From Verrucomicrobiota bacterium (lineage in GTDB: Bacteria > Verrucomicrobiota > Verrucomicrobiia > Verrucomicrobiales > Akkermansiaceae): a stretch of 64,000 bases of DNA. The notes under the pieces are model-generated. The model did no database searches. It saw nothing but the letters and a program-made list of their open reading frames with translations, and was not told the origin of the DNA. This document shows, one piece after another, positions 3,582 to 36,620 of this stretch (within the stretch, counting starts at the first letter, position 1; every line of letters starts with the position of its first letter). The stretch lies in NCBI GenBank assembly GCA_030835305.1, contig JAURPJ010000132.1:1-64000 (forward strand). Reading direction: 5' to 3'. The translations under genes and the position numbers were made by a program.

Positions 3582-4721
3582 ATGCGCATCATTCGAACTC
3601 TCGCTCTTGTTGGATTTGGAATCAGTGCCTACCTCGTTTGGATGAAACTGACGGGCCGGATCACTTCGGTGGTGGGCTGCGGCGGTGAAGGCGGCTGTGC
3701 CAATGTCCTTGGGTCCCAATGGTCGCAGTGGTTTTTAATTCCGGTGAGTGCGGTCTCGGCGTGCTTTTATCTCGGAGTGATTACGCTGACCTTTAAGGTC
3801 TCAAAGCCTCTTCTTACCATGGGCGCTTTTCTTCTGATCGTGGCCGCGGTTTGGTTCATGGGCTTGCAGGCTATTGTCATCAAATCGTTTTGCCCGTGGT
3901 GTTTCGCCACTCATTTGACCGGACTCCTGACCGCCGGGGCTATTCTGTGGAAAGCGAGGGCTCCTTTCAAAGCGTCTTTTGCGGTTATCCCGTTGGTTCT
4001 CATGACGGTGCTGGCACTGGGCCAGGTTTACGGCCCCAAGCCCAAGACTTATGAAGTCACCTCGGAGACGGGCATTGAAAAGCGCAAGGAGGTGAAGGTT
4101 CAGAATGAAGGCAAGGGGAAGTTGGTGGCCTTCAAGGATCTCACGGGCAAGGTCGTGAAAACCTACCGCCTTGGCTCGGTGCCTTTGATCGGTTCGCCAA
4201 ACGCGAAGCATTTCGTCGTAAAGTATTTCGATTATACCTGTGCTTCGTGCCGCACCATGGAGGAAGATTTGGCCGCTTTGATGCAGAAGTATCCCGGGCA
4301 GGTTGCCGTGATTGTTTTGCCGACGCCACTGAACCGGGTGTGTAATCCCTACCTTAGCCCAAAAATCCACGACCACGAACATGCTTGCGAGTTGGCTCGT
4401 TTGGGTCTCGCGGCCTGGAAGGCACAGCCCGAGTCGTTCGAGGAAGCACATGAAATTCTCTTTCAGCGTCCGGTCCATTCCGGAGCCAGCGCCAGGGCCC
4501 GGCTCGAGGAGGTCATCCCGGCTGAAAAGCTGGATACGGCCCTCAAGGATCCTTGGCTTGAGGCCTTGCTGAAGTCCAATCTGGAAGACTATCGCGTCCT
4601 TTCCAGCCAGCGAATTGAGATGCCCAAGCTGATGGTGAGGGGCACCAGGACAATGCATGGCCTCGCGCCTACCACAGAGAAATTCCTGAAGCTCATTGCG
4701 AAGGAGTTCCAGCTCCGGTAG
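3582..4721 (+). CDS. vitamin K epoxide reductase fused to a thioredoxin/DsbA-like domain
   Basis: VKOR homologues reoxidise or drive a periplasmic disulfide-forming partner using quinone. Residues 1-150 carry the VKOR four-helix core: loop cysteines Cys33 and Cys39 (GCGGEGGCANVLGSQW) and the quinone-facing CPWC at 104-107. Residues about 195-375 form a thioredoxin-like domain with CASC at 220-223 (DYTCASCRTME). The DsbB-type and DsbA-type activities thus sit on one chain, as in cyanobacterial and some other VKOR fusions. The last 29 bases overlap the convergent membrane-protein gene. Periplasmic orientation of the thioredoxin part is inferred. Confidence 0.92.
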   Translation: MRIIRTLALVGFGISAYLVWMKLTGRITSVVGCGGEGGCANVLGSQWSQWFLIPVSAVSACFYLGVITLTFKVSKPLLTMGAFLLIVAAVWFMGLQAIVIKSFCPWCFATHLTGLLTAGAILWKARAPFKASFAVIPLVLMTVLALGQVYGPKPKTYEVTSETGIEKRKEVKVQNEGKGKLVAFKDLTGKVVKTYRLGSVPLIGSPNAKHFVVKYFDYTCASCRTMEEDLAALMQKYPGQVAVIVLPTPLNRVCNPYLSPKIHDHEHACELARLGLAAWKAQPESFEEAHEILFQRPVHSGASARARLEEVIPAEKLDTALKDPWLEALLKSNLEDYRVLSSQRIEMPKLMVRGTRTMHGLAPTTEKFLKLIAKEFQLR

Positions 4722-28230: not shown

Positions 28231-29097
28231 ATGCTTCGAGTGAATGGAGAATTGGTTGATCAGGAATTAGTGGAAGAAACCTTTCATCGTGTCAAAACGG
28301 CTGAAGAGCAAAAGGTCCAGGTCTCGTGCTGTGAGCGTGATCCTGAATTCTACGAGCAGGCCGAGCAGGAGGTGGCGGATTCTATCTTGATTGCGCAGGA
28401 GGCGGAGAAGCGATTTCCCGAAATTCCGGAAGAAGAAGTGACGCCAAAGCTGAAGGAAATGATCGACGTCTACCGTGAACACGGCGCGTCCTGGGATATG
28501 TTGGAGGCGCAGCGCGACATGATGCGGCACGAGATTTCGGCGTCGCTGAGAATGGATAAGTTGATCGCTGATTTGTTGGGTGATGACAACGAAGTCAGCG
28601 AGGAGGAGGTGAGGGCTTTTTACGAGGAGCACCTGAAAGACTACCGGACTCCTGCTGAAGCGCGGAGTTTACACTTGATGAAAACACTGAACGAAGACAC
28701 CACGGCGGAAGAGGTTTTTTCGAAGCTGTGTGCGCTGCGTGAGGAGGTTTTAGAAGGCGGGGATTTTGAGGAGATTGCCAAGCGCGAGACCGAAAAGTCG
28801 ACGGGTGAGTTGGATCTCGGGTGGATCTCGCTGGATAGGCCCACGAACCCTTTTGAAGCCACCTTGTTTTCGATGCGGGATGGTGAGGTTTCGCCTGTCA
28901 TTGTTTACGAACACGCGATGCATCTGGTGAAAGTGGTCGAGCTCAAGCCCGAGCAGGTGGTTCCTTTTGAGGAAGTGAAGGAGGAGCTTGAAAATCGGGC
29001 ACTGGCGCTGAAACGACGGAATGCCCTTCAGGCCCTCGCGGTGGAGCTTCGCAAGAATGCCGTGATAGAAAAGATCGACACAACGGGTGAAGAATGA
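28231..29097 (+). CDS. parvulin-type peptidyl-prolyl isomerase (no signal peptide)
   Basis: A 288-residue protein. An N-terminal SurA/trigger-factor-like helical region (FHRVKTAEEQKVQ…) leads to a rotamase domain near 150-245 (ARSLHLMKTLNEDTTAEEVF, GELDLGWISLDRPTNPFEATLFSM, GEVSPVIVYEHAMHLVKV). SurA and PrsA are exported, but no leader is visible here, so it may be cytoplasmic. Its TGA overlaps an ATG at 29094 and sits 14 bases before the DUF3570 barrel gene, so it probably belongs to that operon. A chaperone role for the barrel is suggested by context only. Confidence 0.85.
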   Translation: MLRVNGELVDQELVEETFHRVKTAEEQKVQVSCCERDPEFYEQAEQEVADSILIAQEAEKRFPEIPEEEVTPKLKEMIDVYREHGASWDMLEAQRDMMRHEISASLRMDKLIADLLGDDNEVSEEEVRAFYEEHLKDYRTPAEARSLHLMKTLNEDTTAEEVFSKLCALREEVLEGGDFEEIAKRETEKSTGELDLGWISLDRPTNPFEATLFSMRDGEVSPVIVYEHAMHLVKVVELKPEQVVPFEEVKEELENRALALKRRNALQALAVELRKNAVIEKIDTTGEE

Positions 29098-29110
29098 TGA
29101 TTAATATGAC

Positions 29111-30274
29111 ATGGTTTTTCGCCGTGTTCTTTATCCCGCCCTTCCGGTCTTTTCGGCAGGGACTGGGTCCTCGCAGGAGGCTCTTCGTTATCGTTATCAA
29201 TTTTACGACGAGGACGACGGGCGGATCGACGTTGAGTCGCACTATCTCGATTATGAAATCGCATGGGGGAAGACCTCGGCGAGTTTGCGGTTGGCGGTTG
29301 ATAGTTTGACGGGGATGACGCCAACCGGAACGCATGCTCCGGGTGATCCCGACGATTGGCTTTTCCAGACGATCACGGACGAGCGCAGGGTCGGAGTGGC
29401 TACCATTGAGCACGAGGTGAATGATTACACCTTGTCGTTTGAATATGCCCACAGCAAGGAAATCGATTATCGCTCGAATGCCGTCACAGGAAAAGTGAGC
29501 CGTCAGTTTAACCAGAAGAATACCACCGTGACTGCGGGAATGGCTTTTGCTTTCGACGAAGTCCTGGCCACACCCTTCACCAACAACTTGAACGATGAGG
29601 ATAAGGATACTTTTGATTTCAACTTTGGCGTATCCCAGATTTTGAGTCGCAACACCATTTTGGATCTTAATTTGGGCTATGGTCACAATCGTGGATATTT
29701 AGGAGATCCTTATCGTCGAATTTCCCAGCAGAAGACGGTGATCGTGGACGGGCCGTTTGGACCGATCCCGGTGGATGGCACCTTCAATTTTGCCGAGAAT
29801 CGACCCGATCAACTGGATCGATTTGTGGCAAAGGCGAGCGTCCGGCATTACTTCCAGCAGGCCAATGCCGCGCTCAGTTGTTCCTATCGTTTTTTCGCAA
29901 ATACCAACAGTATCGAGGGGCACACCTTCGAAGTGAAGTGGATTCAGGAGATCAATCGACGATTAAGTATCACACCTTACCTTCGTTATTATGCACAGAG
30001 CGAAGCGGACTTTTACTACACCTCTCTCACCGGGACGGGGATCGAGGCCACCGAGCGTATCGACGGCGGTGGGCCAAATTACTCTTCGGATTATCGTCTC
30101 TCCAAATTTGAAGCGTTCACCTACGGGGTGCGGGTGGCCTGGGAGCCAATCGACAACATGACGCTCGATGTGCAGTGGGAGCGTTACGAGATGGACGGAT
30201 TAAATTCGCAAACTCCCGCATCTTTTTTCCCCTCGGCTAACGTTGTCTCGGTGGGAGCGCAATTTCGCTTCTGA
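29111..30274 (+). CDS. DUF3570 outer-membrane beta-barrel protein
   Basis: A 387-residue barrel protein with alternating strands and a C-terminal aromatic strand (NVVSVGAQFRF) typical of BAM substrates. The N-terminal YRYQFYDEDDGRIDVESHY and DSLTGMTPTGTHAPGDP blocks match the DUF3570 family. The leader in this frame (MVFRRVLYPALPVFSAG) is weak. A better hydrophobic leader (MTWFFAVFFIPPF) lies in the frame beginning at ATG 29094, which is coupled to the PPIase stop. An early frameshift is therefore possible. DUF3570, ApbE and DUF4266 genes often occur together in Proteobacteria and others. Confidence 0.8.
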   Translation: MVFRRVLYPALPVFSAGTGSSQEALRYRYQFYDEDDGRIDVESHYLDYEIAWGKTSASLRLAVDSLTGMTPTGTHAPGDPDDWLFQTITDERRVGVATIEHEVNDYTLSFEYAHSKEIDYRSNAVTGKVSRQFNQKNTTVTAGMAFAFDEVLATPFTNNLNDEDKDTFDFNFGVSQILSRNTILDLNLGYGHNRGYLGDPYRRISQQKTVIVDGPFGPIPVDGTFNFAENRPDQLDRFVAKASVRHYFQQANAALSCSYRFFANTNSIEGHTFEVKWIQEINRRLSITPYLRYYAQSEADFYYTSLTGTGIEATERIDGGGPNYSSDYRLSKFEAFTYGVRVAWEPIDNMTLDVQWERYEMDGLNSQTPASFFPSANVVSVGAQFRF

Positions 30275-30281
30275 TCGAACC

Positions 30282-31226
30282 ATGAATGCGAATCTGACCG
30301 GCGGGCTTTTTAAGCTAAAATTCAAGGCACTCGGAACGGTGTGTGAGGTCCAATTTCGGGCCGCTTCGGTTGAGGTGGCCAAAGAGTTTCGCAAGTCGGC
30401 GCTGGGTTGGCTGCGTGACTTTGAAGAGCGGTGGTCGAGATTCAAACCGACCAGTCTGCTTTGCCGGATCAATGCGGAAGCTGGATGTTCGGCGGTGGAA
30501 ATCACGGAGGGTGATGAAGAGATATTGAAGCTTTGCGACCATGCCTTCCAAATTTCCGAGGGCTTGAACGACCCTACTTCGCTCCCACTGACAAGCTTGT
30601 GGGAGCGAGCTGGATTGGAAGACCTGGTGCCGGTGGATGCAGAGATTGAGAGAGCGATGAATTTGATTTCGTGGCCTGCGGTGGAGTGGGGGAATGGTCG
30701 GGTTTTTCTCCCTGAGCAGGGAATGGCCTTGGAGATCGGAGGGTTTGGAAAGGAATACGCGGTGGACCGGCTCATCGGGTTTGCGAAGCGTTTGGGAATT
30801 GCAGATTGTCTGGTTGATCTGGGACGCGATGTTGCGGCGTTGGGCCAACCGCCTAACGGGCCGGTCTGGGTCATTGGCATTGAGGATGCACAGGAGGAGG
30901 ATGCGGCGGCGTTTCGGCTTGCGGTGAGCGGGAAAGGATTGGCTACCTCGGGTAACGGGCGGAGATTCCGGTTGATCAAGGGCGAGAAGTTTGGCCACAT
31001 CATTGATCCGAGAACTGGCTGGCCGGCCAGGAATGACCTCCTGACGGCGTCTTGTCTGGCAGATGATTGTTTGACAGCAGGGTTGTTATCAACGAATGCT
31101 TGTATCGTAGGTGAGGAGAAAGGAATTGAAGCCATCGAGCGGAGTTTTGGTGTCGAAGGCCTTCTTCAAACCACCAGCGATCACGTTTACAGCTCAAACA
31201 TTCATCGACATGTCCTTGGCTCTTAA
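30282..31226 (+). CDS. apbE: FAD:protein FMN transferase (ApbE family)
   Basis: ApbE attaches FMN covalently to Thr/Ser of target proteins, normally in the periplasm, using FAD and Mg. The 314-residue protein has the family blocks LGTVCEVQF, ALEIGGFGKEYAVDRLIGFA, the GLATSGNGRRF loop and HIIDPRTGWPA. No Sec leader or lipobox is visible from ATG 30282, which is unusual for ApbE. It starts 8 bases after the barrel gene and overlaps the DUF4266 gene by 17 bases. The flavinylated target is not obvious: no D-x-x-[ST]-G-A-[ST] site was seen in neighbouring proteins. Confidence 0.92.
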   Translation: MNANLTGGLFKLKFKALGTVCEVQFRAASVEVAKEFRKSALGWLRDFEERWSRFKPTSLLCRINAEAGCSAVEITEGDEEILKLCDHAFQISEGLNDPTSLPLTSLWERAGLEDLVPVDAEIERAMNLISWPAVEWGNGRVFLPEQGMALEIGGFGKEYAVDRLIGFAKRLGIADCLVDLGRDVAALGQPPNGPVWVIGIEDAQEEDAAAFRLAVSGKGLATSGNGRRFRLIKGEKFGHIIDPRTGWPARNDLLTASCLADDCLTAGLLSTNACIVGEEKGIEAIERSFGVEGLLQTTSDHVYSSNIHRHVLGS

Positions 31227-31431
31227 ATTATCCGCGGCATTTGCGCTGCTCGTTTTACTCCCTTCCTGCACCGTGGTTTCCACACCGGCGGAGCGGAGAA
31301 ATCTCGCCTCCAAGGTGATGTCGCCGGAACGCGATCCACTGGGCGAGGCCATGGCCGACCATATGTATTTTTCCCGTGAGGCCTCCCAGGGAGGCAATGG
31401 AATTGGCGGAGGTGGTTGTGGATGTAATTAG
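31210..31431 (+). CDS. DUF4266 small lipoprotein with GGGGCGCN C-terminus
   Basis: A 73-residue lipoprotein (MSLALKLSAAFALLVLLPSC; lipobox LPSC, Cys20). The mature part is tiny and contains AERRNLASKVMSPERDPLG, the block HMYFSREASQGG and the family's extreme C-terminus GIGGGGCGCN. Two cysteines spaced by one glycine at the very end suggest metal binding, redox or a modification site. The start at ATG 31210 overlaps the ApbE stop. The family travels with DUF3570 and ApbE genes. Function not known to me. Confidence 0.85.
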   Translation: MSLALKLSAAFALLVLLPSCTVVSTPAERRNLASKVMSPERDPLGEAMADHMYFSREASQGGNGIGGGGCGCN

Positions 31432-31443
31432 GATTTAAGAACA

Positions 31444-32316
31444 ATGAACTATCGAATCGCATACGAACGAGCAGTTAATGTCACCGTGAGTAGTCTCGCC
31501 ATGGTGGCCCAGCGCTTGCCGTTTTTAAAGAACCTGACTCCATTTCTGGGGACAACGGGCGGGATCAATTTTGCGGCACCAGTGACCATGTCATTTCTGG
31601 GGACACACGCCTTGTCTGGTCAGTCGATCACAATCGTTCCGTTAAACGGTGCAACCGATACAGAGACGGTGGGTGCGGGCGAGCAGTTTATTTGGTCCTT
31701 TAATGTGAGCAGTTACCAGTTGAGGGACGCGAGTGCAATCACCAACGGAGTTCCTGAGACGCTGCCCGAAGGGCTTGATTTTTTTGGACCTCAGAGTGGT
31801 GTTATGACTATTGCTGGAACTCCGACCAAACCTGGCGAATACGAAATTGTCTTGTTCGCTTATCGCTTTATGAGCCGTCAGGCGGGAACGACGGCTCCTT
31901 ACACTCTCACTCTCACGGTTGAAGGTTCGGCTTCCCCGTTCGAGGAATTTTTAGCTGGTTTCTATTCTGGCGATGATCTGTTGAACCCCCTGATCGTCGG
32001 TCCCAATGCGGACCCCGATGCCGACGGAATCGATAACGCAATGGAGGTTGTTCTAGATCTGAATCCGTCCTTCCCGGATTCGATGCCGGGCATGATTGGT
32101 GTCGATCCAAGCGATCCGCAAATGCTTCGCTACGAGATTCCTGTCAATGCGCTCGCCAGTGAAACCACGATTGGCTTCGAAGAATCGACCAATCTGGAAG
32201 GTGAATGGCAGGCCGTTCTGGCTGAATTCGTCGAGCGGACCAACGAGAGGATTGTCCTGACCGTGCCACTGGCTGCTCGAAAATTCTACCGGCTCAAGGT
32301 GATCGTTGAGGAATAA
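31444..32316 (+). CDS. Ig-like (putative Ig, He_PIG type) protein with calcium-type repeat
   Basis: A 290-residue protein. A cadherin/Ig-like domain spans about 60-160 (GLDFFGPQSGVMTIAGTPTKPGEYEI is the He_PIG signature, residues about 98-125). Next is a thrombospondin-3-like acidic loop (NADPDADGIDNAMEVVLDLNP), and a C-terminal beta domain of about 75 residues common in Verrucomicrobia. No signal peptide is visible from the ATG at 31444. It begins 12 bases after the DUF4266 stop with AGGA upstream, so it is probably the last gene of that operon. Surface or periplasmic binding is likely only if another export route is used. Confidence 0.65.
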   Translation: MNYRIAYERAVNVTVSSLAMVAQRLPFLKNLTPFLGTTGGINFAAPVTMSFLGTHALSGQSITIVPLNGATDTETVGAGEQFIWSFNVSSYQLRDASAITNGVPETLPEGLDFFGPQSGVMTIAGTPTKPGEYEIVLFAYRFMSRQAGTTAPYTLTLTVEGSASPFEEFLAGFYSGDDLLNPLIVGPNADPDADGIDNAMEVVLDLNPSFPDSMPGMIGVDPSDPQMLRYEIPVNALASETTIGFEESTNLEGEWQAVLAEFVERTNERIVLTVPLAARKFYRLKVIVEE

Positions 32317-32319
32317 ATC

Positions 32320-32835
32320 CTACTTGGCCGCGTTTTCGAAGGCACTCGCGATGAGCTTCTCGAAATCAACCTTGGTCTTTTTGACGTCGGCTTCCTTACC
32401 GAGCATTTTGAGGAAGACGTCACCGGATGGATGCGGAATGACTGCGCCGAGGAGCATGTAGCCGGGAGTGGCGGTTTTGTTGCGGGCCATCATGGGGCCA
32501 ACCATGTAGGTTCCGGTCATGGTAACGATGGTGAGCTTTTGGTCGCCAAAGGTTTTTTCCTCGGGAGTGACTTTGGCCTCGCCGTTCTCAAACTGTTTTT
32601 TCCAGCGCTGGAGATTGGCCTCGACTCCGCCTCCCTGCCCTTCGCCGAAGTGGTAGAATTTGAGGAGTGGTCCGTCCTTCTTGCCGTGGTTGAGAACCGC
32701 CTTGACCATGTGGCTTTTCGGTTCGGACACAATCCAAGATTTTTCGGGCTTGAAGGTGAAGTTCCCGACTTTGAAGGGATCTTGCGCGGAAAGAAGGCTG
32801 AGAGAGAAGGCCCAGAGAATGGTAATAAGCTTCAT
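32320..32835 (-). CDS. hypothetical secreted protein
   Basis: A 171-residue protein with a clean signal peptide (MKLITILWAFSLSLLSAQ). The mature part is beta-rich and basic (FTFKPEKSWIVSEPKSHMV; MLLGAVIPHPSGDVFLKMLG). No named family recognised; similar small exported proteins occur in Verrucomicrobia. It ends 4 bases from the convergent Ig-like gene. Confidence 0.7.
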   Translation of the reverse strand: MKLITILWAFSLSLLSAQDPFKVGNFTFKPEKSWIVSEPKSHMVKAVLNHGKKDGPLLKFYHFGEGQGGGVEANLQRWKKQFENGEAKVTPEEKTFGDQKLTIVTMTGTYMVGPMMARNKTATPGYMLLGAVIPHPSGDVFLKMLGKEADVKKTKVDFEKLIASAFENAAK

Positions 32836-33887: not shown

Positions 33888-33989
33888 CTGGCCCTATCAC
33901 GTATCAGATTTTCTTAAGTATTACGAATTAGAATAATTCCAAATTTCGGCTTGCTCTGTTAGAAATTGCGCATAGCTTCCCCCATCTTG

Positions 33990-34418
33990 ATGATTTCGCT
34001 CGCCAACATGAAGAACCTGAAGCCTGGGGATTTCCCCCCGGAGATCAAGGGTTTGCGGATGACCAGGCAGCGCCGCGAGGTGCTCGCCGTTATCTTGCGG
34101 GATCGCGACCATCCCACTGCGAACGACGTTTTCCTCCGTGCCCAGAAGCGAATGCCAACAATATCGCTCGCCACTATATACAACTGCCTTGAGGCGCTGG
34201 TGACCCACAATATCGTTCGTCAGGTCAATCTCGAGCGGGAGTCTTCCCGCTACTGTCCGAATCTTAGCGATCACTGCCACTTTCAGGACGAGAAGTCCGG
34301 TAAAATTCACGACGTTGTTTTTAAAAAAGGAGTGAAACTTGAGGATATCCTCGAGCTCCCTAAGGGAACCGAAGTCAGCCACCTTGAAATCAGCCTGAAG
34401 GGAATCTTCGGAAAATAA
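33990..34418 (+). CDS. Fur-family transcriptional regulator without the CxxC zinc site
   Basis: A 142-residue winged-helix regulator: GLRMTRQRREVLAVIL, HPTANDVFLRAQKRMPTISLATIYNCLEALV and the dimer domain. The usual metal region H-H-H-x-x-C-x-x-C-G is DHCHFQDEKSGKIHDV here, so both structural-zinc cysteines are replaced (Asp and Ser), although His-Cys-His remains. The ATG at 33990 is listed; 34008 (MKNLKP) is an equally good start. It is 18 bases upstream of sufC and reads in the same direction, so it probably controls the Suf iron-sulfur operon. No palindromic operator was identified. Confidence 0.88.
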   Translation: MISLANMKNLKPGDFPPEIKGLRMTRQRREVLAVILRDRDHPTANDVFLRAQKRMPTISLATIYNCLEALVTHNIVRQVNLERESSRYCPNLSDHCHFQDEKSGKIHDVVFKKGVKLEDILELPKGTEVSHLEISLKGIFGK

Positions 34419-34436
34419 TAAAACTCACACAACACC

Positions 34437-35177
34437 ATGAGCCTAACCATCGAAAACCTGCATGCTTCTGTCGAAGGAGCCCCAATCCTGAAGGGCCTCA
34501 ACCTTGAGATCCCAGCCGGGGAAGTGCACGCCATTATGGGTCCAAACGGATCCGGAAAATCAACTCTCTCCAAAATCATAGCCGGTCACGACGACTACGA
34601 GCTTACCGATGGCCGCGTTCTTCTGGACGGAGTCGATGTTTCCGGGCTCGAGGTAGACGAGCGCTCCCGCGCCGGGATTTTTCTGGCCTTCCAGTATCCC
34701 GCCGAGGTTCCTGGTGTGTCCAATGCCAACTTCCTTCGCGCCGCTCTTCAGGCTCGTCTTCCCGACGGTGAGGAAATCGATGCCGTTGCATTCTACAAGG
34801 ACATGTATGCCAAGATGGATGAACTCGAAATGAACCGGAAGTTCACCAGCCGCGCGGTCAACGAAGGCTTCTCCGGAGGCGAAAAAAAACGGAACGAAAT
34901 TCTTCAGATGATGATGCTCGATCCCCGCTATTGCCTGCTCGATGAGACTGACTCCGGCCTCGATATCGATGCTCTCAAGGTGGTTGCGAAAGGAGTGAAC
35001 TCGATGCGCTCCGCGAATCGAGGCTTCCTCGTCATCACCCACTACCAGCGATTGCTCGACTACATCAAGCCCGACCACGTTCACGTCATGGCCGACGGCC
35101 AAATCGTGAAGTCCGGCGGCGCCGAGCTCGCTCTTGAACTCGAAGAAAGCGGATACGACTTCCTCAAAACCGCCTAA
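34437..35177 (+). CDS. sufC: Fe-S cluster assembly ATPase SufC
   Basis: ATPase of the SufBCD scaffold complex. The 246-residue protein has Walker [10 protein letters not shown], the Q-loop [15 protein letters not shown], the signature [12 protein letters not shown], Walker [16 protein letters not shown] and the switch HYQRLL. Length is standard. It lies between a Fur-type regulator and sufB, 21 bases before the latter. SufS and SufE/U are absent from the window. Confidence 0.98.
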
Positions 35178-35198
35178 TCCAATCCCCCGCACAACCCC

Positions 35199-36620
35199 AT
35201 GAATTCCGAAACCGCTACCGTCAAACAGGTCGCTCTTGAGAAAGACGGCGTCGGCAACTTTTCCTTCCCGGAGAGCCATAAGTTTGATGCCGGATATGGT
35301 CTGACCAAAGACACCATAGATTACATTTCGAAGGTGAAGGACGAGCCCGCCTGGGTGAATGAGTTTCGTCACAAGGCACTTGAGACTTTTCTTTCCAAAC
35401 CGATGCCCACCAACTGGGCGACCAAGGATCTGGAAAACATCGATTTCGATGCCATCCGCTACTATCTTTCCGATGGAGCCACGCCAAAGCGCTCTTGGGA
35501 CGATGTTCCTCCTGAAGTGCTTGAGACCTTTGATCGCCTTGGCGTCCCTGAGCAGGAGCGGGCGTTTCTTGCCGGGGTTGAGGCGCAATATGATTCCGAA
35601 GCGGCCTACTCGAACGTCAAAGAAGCACTTGCCGATGAAGGGGTGATTTTCGTGACTTGCTCGGAAGGACTAAAAGAGCACGAGGAAATTTTCCGCCCTT
35701 GGTTTGGCAAAGTGATTCCTACCGGTGACAATAAATTTTCTGCTCTGAATTCCGCGGTAATGTCGGGTGGTTCCTTCATTTACATTCCTCCGGGCGTGAA
35801 GGTGAAGCACCCCCTCCAGGCCTATTTCCGCATCAACTCTGAAAACTTTGGTCAGTTTGAGCGCACGCTCATTATTGCCGACGAAGGCGCAGAAGTGATG
35901 TATATGGAAGGCTGCACCGCTCCGAAGTTTGAGACCGCGACCCTGCACTCGGCAGTCGTTGAGTTGGTCGCGATGAAGGGAGCCAAGATCCAATACATCA
36001 CGGTTCAAAACTGGTCATCAAACGTCTTCAATCTCGTCACCAAGCGTGGCCTCGCTCACGAAGATGCCGAAATCCGCTGGATTGACTGCAACATCGGCTC
36101 ACGCCTCACCATGAAGTATCCCGGGGTGGTCATGAAAGGCGAGCGCGCCCGTGGCGAAGTGATCTCGATTGCTCTTGCAAACGATGGACAGCACCAGGAC
36201 ACAGGAGCCAAGATGATCCACGCCGCCAACAACACGACTTCAAACGTCGTCTCCAAGTCGATCTCGGTTGGCGAAGGCCGTTCCACCTATCGTGGACAGG
36301 TTCACATTCCCAAGCATCTGAAGGGTTGCAAGAACAACACTGAATGCGATGCCTTGCTCATAAACACCAACAGCCGGACCGACACCTACCCTGCCATTTC
36401 GGTGAAGGGGAACCAGCACGTCACCCAGCACGAAGCGAGTGTCAGTCAGGTTTCCGAAGAGATGCTCTTCTATATGCAGCAGCGAGGCCTCTCTGAAGCG
36501 CAGGCCATGTCCCTCGCCGTCAATGGATTCATCAACGATCTCGTCGAAGAATTCCCAATGGAATACTCGGTGGAGCTCAAGCGCTTGATCGACCTCGAGA
36601 TGGAAGGATCCGTTGGCTAA
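35199..36620 (+). CDS. sufB: Fe-S cluster assembly scaffold protein SufB
   Basis: Scaffold subunit on which nascent Fe-S clusters form with SufC and SufD. At 473 residues it matches typical SufB length. The beta-helix core begins near [20 protein letters not shown], and the family blocks [21 protein letters not shown] and [18 protein letters not shown] follow. The conserved late part reads [12 protein letters not shown] and [20 protein letters not shown]. The cysteine in EGCTAP and the one in NTECDALL are the conserved positions implicated in cluster assembly. Confidence 0.98.

Follow-up and report, generated by a model that had tools for sequence, protein, structure and literature searches.

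The closest described relatives of the locus analyzed here are the gene clusters reported by Meheust et al. in 2021, in which genes for ApbE, DUF3570, a thioredoxin-like protein and DUF4266 are found together, often with DsbD (PMC8238504). In that study, the DUF3570 protein of Chlorobium luteolum was flavinylated by its cognate ApbE at the serines of two [ST]GA[ST] motifs, and electron flow from DsbD was proposed, with the final function left uncertain. The thioredoxin-like gene is typical of these clusters but not universal, being found in 183 of 285 DsbD clusters (PMC8238504). Among 5.39 million open papers, this was the only one that names DUF4266 or DUF3570. Given this 2021 publication, the core of the arrangement pointed out in an earlier note on our DNA is of a known kind; the note's statement that ApbE, DUF3570 and DUF4266 have no settled function missed the published cluster and the role of DUF3570 as an ApbE substrate. 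The target pattern of ApbE is D-x-x-[ST]-G-A-[ST], replacement of the motif Ala by Val halves flavinylation in another substrate, and a leaderless cytosolic ApbE is known for the Klebsiella fumarate reductase (PMC12052999). In the ApbE-family enzyme FmnB, Asp301 coordinates Mg2+, and the activity of the alanine mutant is greatly reduced or abolished (PMC8906456).

The window, a 64-kb stretch of a Verrucomicrobiota contig, has five open reading frames on the plus strand at 28231-32316. These encode a PPIC-type, NifM/SurA-like PPIase (28231-29097, Pfam Rotamase_2 7.6e-19), a DUF3570 protein (29111-30274, Pfam 1.5e-60), an ApbE-family protein (30282-31226, Pfam 1.4e-57), a DUF4266 mini-lipoprotein (31210-31431, Pfam 6.2e-18) and an Ig-like protein (31444-32316). 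The five head-to-tail genes that the earlier note had assigned to these families are thus all in place and on that strand, and its tiny lipoprotein is borne out by a lipobox LPSC and a C-terminal GGGGCGCN. The spacings, from the PPIase through the Ig-like gene, are 13, 7, -17 and 12 nt; of the gaps given previously the -17 and 12 hold, and the 14 and 8 were each one base too many. The arrangement is not due to chance, because the same gene order repeats across the genus of the window and its core repeats across the phylum and beyond. As in the DsbD-type clusters of Meheust et al., ApbE, DUF3570 and DUF4266 are contiguous, DUF3570 has an [ST]G-x-[ST] motif and DUF4266 ends in CxC (PMC8238504). 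In contrast to those clusters, the window lacks a thioredoxin gene and has an added Ig-like partner, the motif Ala is replaced, a single motif is recognized and DsbD is on another contig.

Of 388 genomes sampled from the phylum, 41 have DUF3570, as do 30 of 58 relatives. A scan of named genomes gave 80 DUF3570 loci, mostly from Gammaproteobacteria and Campylobacterota, and near DUF3570 we found DUF4266 in all 80, ApbE in 67 and a TlpA-like thioredoxin in 70. The co-occurrence of the three families across phyla that had been claimed is therefore supported, and the neighborhood is conserved well outside this genome. A plasmid search for DUF3570 returned Vibrio and Hymenobacter records only. Clusters in the class of the window usually run DUF3570-ApbE-TlpA-DUF4266-Ig. 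Within the genus there are clusters without TlpA, which we call type A, and clusters with TlpA (type B; L051, L057, L059 and L062), the TlpA gene being broken in L057. No close copy of the cluster thioredoxin was found elsewhere in the window assembly, where the best match is 36% identical and interrupted. Contig C54 of the window genome carries another DUF3570 cluster, of a more typical kind. We also observed, at 3582-4718 of the window, a fusion of VKOR with a DsbA-like thioredoxin domain (VKOR 4.6e-16, Thioredoxin_4 2.4e-11), a disulfide-forming enzyme that shares the window with the CxC lipoprotein.

Three congeners that have no DUF3570 (G009, G012 and G018) show the limits of the unit. 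In these genomes DUF3570, ApbE, DUF4266 and the Ig-like gene are missing together and the flanks remain, with the Rce1, PPIase, Fur and SUF genes kept in order and the PPIase 74-82% identical. The gene matching 32320-32835 is also retained in two of the three, and a single different small gene occupies the site in G009. Because the PPIase stays with its synteny in these module-less genomes, we judge it to be a backbone neighbor and a bystander, and the unit to be four genes, 29111-32316; the PPIase that had been suggested as an extension of the device is not supported as part of it. Downstream of the module are a Fur-family regulator (33966-34418) and sufC and sufB (34437-36620), in an order kept in many congeners. 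These neighbors may point to a link with iron, but that synteny also holds without the module.

The DUF3570 protein was predicted by AlphaFold2 to be an 18-strand barrel (pLDDT 91.7, pTM 0.85), and the top Foldseek matches of the model are porins and outer-membrane channels. An even number of antiparallel strands and a C-terminal Phe also agree with an outer-membrane beta-barrel, so the barrel proposed in the earlier note is now predicted with high confidence. The candidate flavinylation motif is D64-S-L-T-G-M-T70 (29300-29320, plus strand), in which the D, the G and the acceptor T are kept and the Ala is a Met; no second motif was found in the window protein. Counting strands from a periplasmic N-terminus, we infer that T70 would lie on strand 3, close to its outer end. 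In an alignment of 68 homologues the acceptor is Ser or Thr in all 67 that have a residue there, the Gly is present in 65 of the 67, and the residue before the acceptor is A in 39, M in 13, E in 6, S in 5 and Q in 4. Across the phylum the motif is mostly D/N-x-I-[SAT]-G-[AS]-[TS]-P-T-G. In 24 members of the genus the D, G and T are unchanged and the -1 residue is M, E or Q, and once A, having changed several times on the genus tree.

The ApbE protein scores 195.7 bits against a Pfam cut-off of 25.6, with FmnB (7esa) and TM1553 as solved relatives by sequence, and is an ApbE-family member and a putative transferase. Compared with FmnB, with residue numbers matched by counting along the alignment, Lys157, Ser223, Arg228 and His239 are kept and Gly267 is found where FmnB has Asp301. 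The catalytic Asp-Ser-His is therefore incomplete, Ser223 and His239 being present and the Asp (the Asp301/Asp285 position) being Gly267. The same Gly was found in every Verrucomicrobiota cluster that we read except the divergent L122, L127, L131 and L134. Each of the 66 ApbEs aligned from the named-genome loci, mostly of other phyla, has it too, which makes it a stable subfamily trait and not a local decay. No signal peptide was found in the window ApbE or in the PPIase, which has no hydrophobic N-terminus. By a simple hydropathy measure, as distinct from SignalP, about 95% of 132 cluster ApbE N-termini have no signal-peptide-like hydrophobic stretch and 5% reach it, compared with 88% of the TlpA N-termini and 96% of those of DUF4266. 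Since the cluster ApbEs are without signal peptides, attachment in the cytosol before export is suggested, and a cytosolic ApbE subfamily that would modify its targets before export is a straightforward inference.

The window ApbE shares with the canonical secreted enzymes (Vibrio cholerae ApbE and Listeria FmnB) the family, the Ser/His active site and FmnB Lys190 and Arg262, but differs in having no signal peptide and a Gly for the Mg2+-binding, catalytic Asp. It is leaderless like the Klebsiella fumarate reductase ApbE (PMC12052999), whose substrate stays in the cytosol, while the presumed substrates here are envelope proteins. ApbEs with both the Asp and a signal peptide do occur, in the four divergent clusters and on contig C48 of the window genome. 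The divergent clusters are a second flavor of DUF3570 cluster in which ApbE has a Gly at the Asp151 site, and the usual motif search of their DUF3570 proteins returned nothing. The earlier note had considered that ApbE might serve only Nqr/Rnf. An FMN_bind search of the window assembly found one protein of 531-534 residues with two FMN_bind domains (L287 3183-4778, contig C19 of G000) and no separate NqrC/RnfG-like protein, which does not favor that limitation. We dropped NqrC/RnfG as a client of the window ApbE, as only the double FMN_bind protein exists and the lipoprotein-type ApbE on C48, whose likely client it is, would be the more natural server. A DsbD is encoded about 7 kb from the C48 gene.

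In the window, the Ig-like protein matches no Pfam family; Ig_3 matches were obtained for 19 of 45 homologues. With a profile (A4) restricted to the N-terminal 83 positions, the Ig module was detected in 25 of the 41 phylum genomes with DUF3570 and in none of the 347 without (Fisher 7e-29 across the 388 genomes, uncorrected for phylogeny or shared descent). It is present in 28 of the 58 relatives, every one a DUF3570 genome, and of 27 genomes of the genus, 22 have DUF3570 together with the Ig module and 5 have neither. From these distributions, the Ig-like gene is a member of the DUF3570 system. All 8 of the Ig-bearing loci among the 80 from named genomes have Verrucomicrobiota titles, in agreement with the suggestion that this gene is a verrucomicrobial extension.

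The N-terminal segment of the 45 homologues, the most distant of which is 14% identical to that of the window, ends in [DHNQ]-[STA]-[LVM]-[STA]-G-[AQ]-[ST]. In the window this is H55-A-L-S-G-Q-S61 (31606-31626, plus strand), and outside the clade of the window the match to the ApbE target pattern is full or near. Gly59 is invariant and residue 61 is Ser or Thr in 45/45, the sole column of 250 that is at least 97% Ser/Thr; by comparison, a strict ApbE-type motif was found in 1 of 659 neighboring ORFs. In the structural model the motif is in a flexible N-terminal segment, with pLDDT below 50, before the beta-sandwich. We predict a second flavinylation site here. A second motif in the window protein, NGAT at residues ~69-72, was dropped because the homologues do not conserve it. 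In type A clusters, Gln is found in the Ig-like protein at the position equivalent to the replaced DUF3570 Ala, while in type B the Gln is in the DUF3570 motif and the Ala in the Ig motif, and L041 is the opposite. Replacements in the two motifs coincide in 19 loci, which all fall in one clade and so are not independent evidence; a shared enzyme with relaxed specificity for both motifs is a suggestive reading of the sequences. The window genome also has a second copy of the Ig-like gene (L279 7234-7605, contig C96 of G000), an orphan truncated N-terminus of 123 aa in which GTHALSGQS is kept. The Ig-like proteins of L043, L063, L064 and L098-L119 share a conserved N-terminal hydrophobic segment, LLLLQR[TS]P, which lies some 30-40 residues ahead of the motif and looks like neither a typical signal peptide nor an obvious anchor.

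We propose, with a probability of roughly 60%, that this is a four-gene verrucomicrobial form of the DUF3570/DUF4266/ApbE system in which a flavin-bearing barrel, a CxC lipoprotein and an Ig partner act as an electron outlet of the envelope. The leaderless ApbE would move FMN from FAD to the Thr or Ser of D-x-x-[ST]-G-x-[ST] in DUF3570, and probably to the Ig-like protein, both before folding in the envelope. Exported DUF3570 would then make the predicted outer-membrane barrel with its flavin on strand 3. As Meheust et al. proposed, and as the neighborhoods suggest, the electrons would come from periplasmic thiols, namely DsbD, the TlpA thioredoxin of most clusters and the CxC lipoprotein, and would pass to an acceptor at the outer membrane or outside it. 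The Ig-like protein may be a dedicated partner and perhaps a second flavin carrier, and the upstream PPIase a neighbor only. The envelope redox device that the earlier note had put forward is thereby supported. We consider this the best explanation because C. luteolum DUF3570 is a proven substrate and the window protein keeps the D, G and T, because the barrel model is confident, because the four genes are missing together in three congeners and the Ig module is confined to DUF3570 genomes, and because the ApbE N-termini are mostly leaderless compared with those of TlpA and DUF4266. It is weakened by the absence of the motif Ala from both DUF3570 and the Ig-like protein, by an ApbE without the Mg2+-coordinating Asp, and by the missing cluster thioredoxin. 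It is also weakened in that we know of no demonstration that a flavin-modified chain passes through the Sec channel for any ApbE product. The fuller scheme, in which the leaderless, Asp-less ApbE flavinylates barrel and Ig partner in the cytosol and the exported flavin-bearing chains form the outlet, is tentative and in our view rather doubtful.

The Ig motif could instead be an A-x-A-like signal peptidase I site ending an extended signal peptide, in which case the Ig-like protein would be a partner of the barrel with a structural or adhesive role and no modification. This is a real possibility, though we would not call it probable. Across the wider class, [STA]-G-A|T comes straight after a hydrophobic stretch, in keeping with the -3/-1 rule, and the Ig-like protein otherwise has no classical signal peptide. 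But cleavage requires neither the Ser/Thr that follows the bond in every sequence nor the invariant Gly at -2, the -1 position is Gln in 20 of the 45 homologues, and signal peptidase normally does not accept Gln there. Residues -6 to -3 also match the DUF3570 pattern, and the motif is kept in seven additional Ig copies, mostly located away from any cluster.

It is less likely that the cluster ApbE, with Gly267 for the catalytic Asp, is weak or altered and that flavinylation has decayed in the genus, leaving DUF3570 and the Ig-like protein as an unmodified porin and its partner. The fixed ApbE changes D151E, D225N and Y226G in the genus, the replaced motif Ala and the lost thioredoxin would all fit such a decay, but the Gly is shared by the named-genome ApbEs, mostly of other phyla, the enzyme still has its Lys, Ser, Arg and His, and the DUF3570 acceptor Thr is invariant. 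We find it very improbable that the device has five genes, with the PPIase as a dedicated chaperone keeping DUF3570 ready for flavinylation and export. Its 13-nt spacing to DUF3570 would fit this, as would its position next to the module in 17 of the 18 genus clusters that are of the window type and have readable upstream sequence. Yet it remains in the three module-less congeners, for which reason we dropped it as a chaperone of the system; a PPIase is near DUF3570 in 0 of the 80 named-genome loci, and L042 has the genus module without an adjoining PPIase.

Beyond the published core, the exclusion of the PPIase, the membership of the Ig-like gene, the replacement of the motif Ala, the leaderless ApbEs with Gly and the loss of the thioredoxin in the lineage of the window are new here. 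MtrCAB is a porin-cytochrome conduit, and the system that we propose would be functionally like it, without a claim of homology, in that an outer-membrane barrel is tied to a redox cofactor, with flavin, an electron carrier derived from vitamin B2, in place of hemes. The smallest set of genes that a clean deletion would have to remove is marked out by the natural empty sites. If the proposed reading is true, a new class of flavin-carrying protein, the Ig-like protein, would be added to the system, and flavin would be attached before export, unlike in known envelope ApbE systems. It would also mean that an ApbE can work in the absence of the catalytic Asp and on a less strictly defined target motif, a useful property for tagging proteins.
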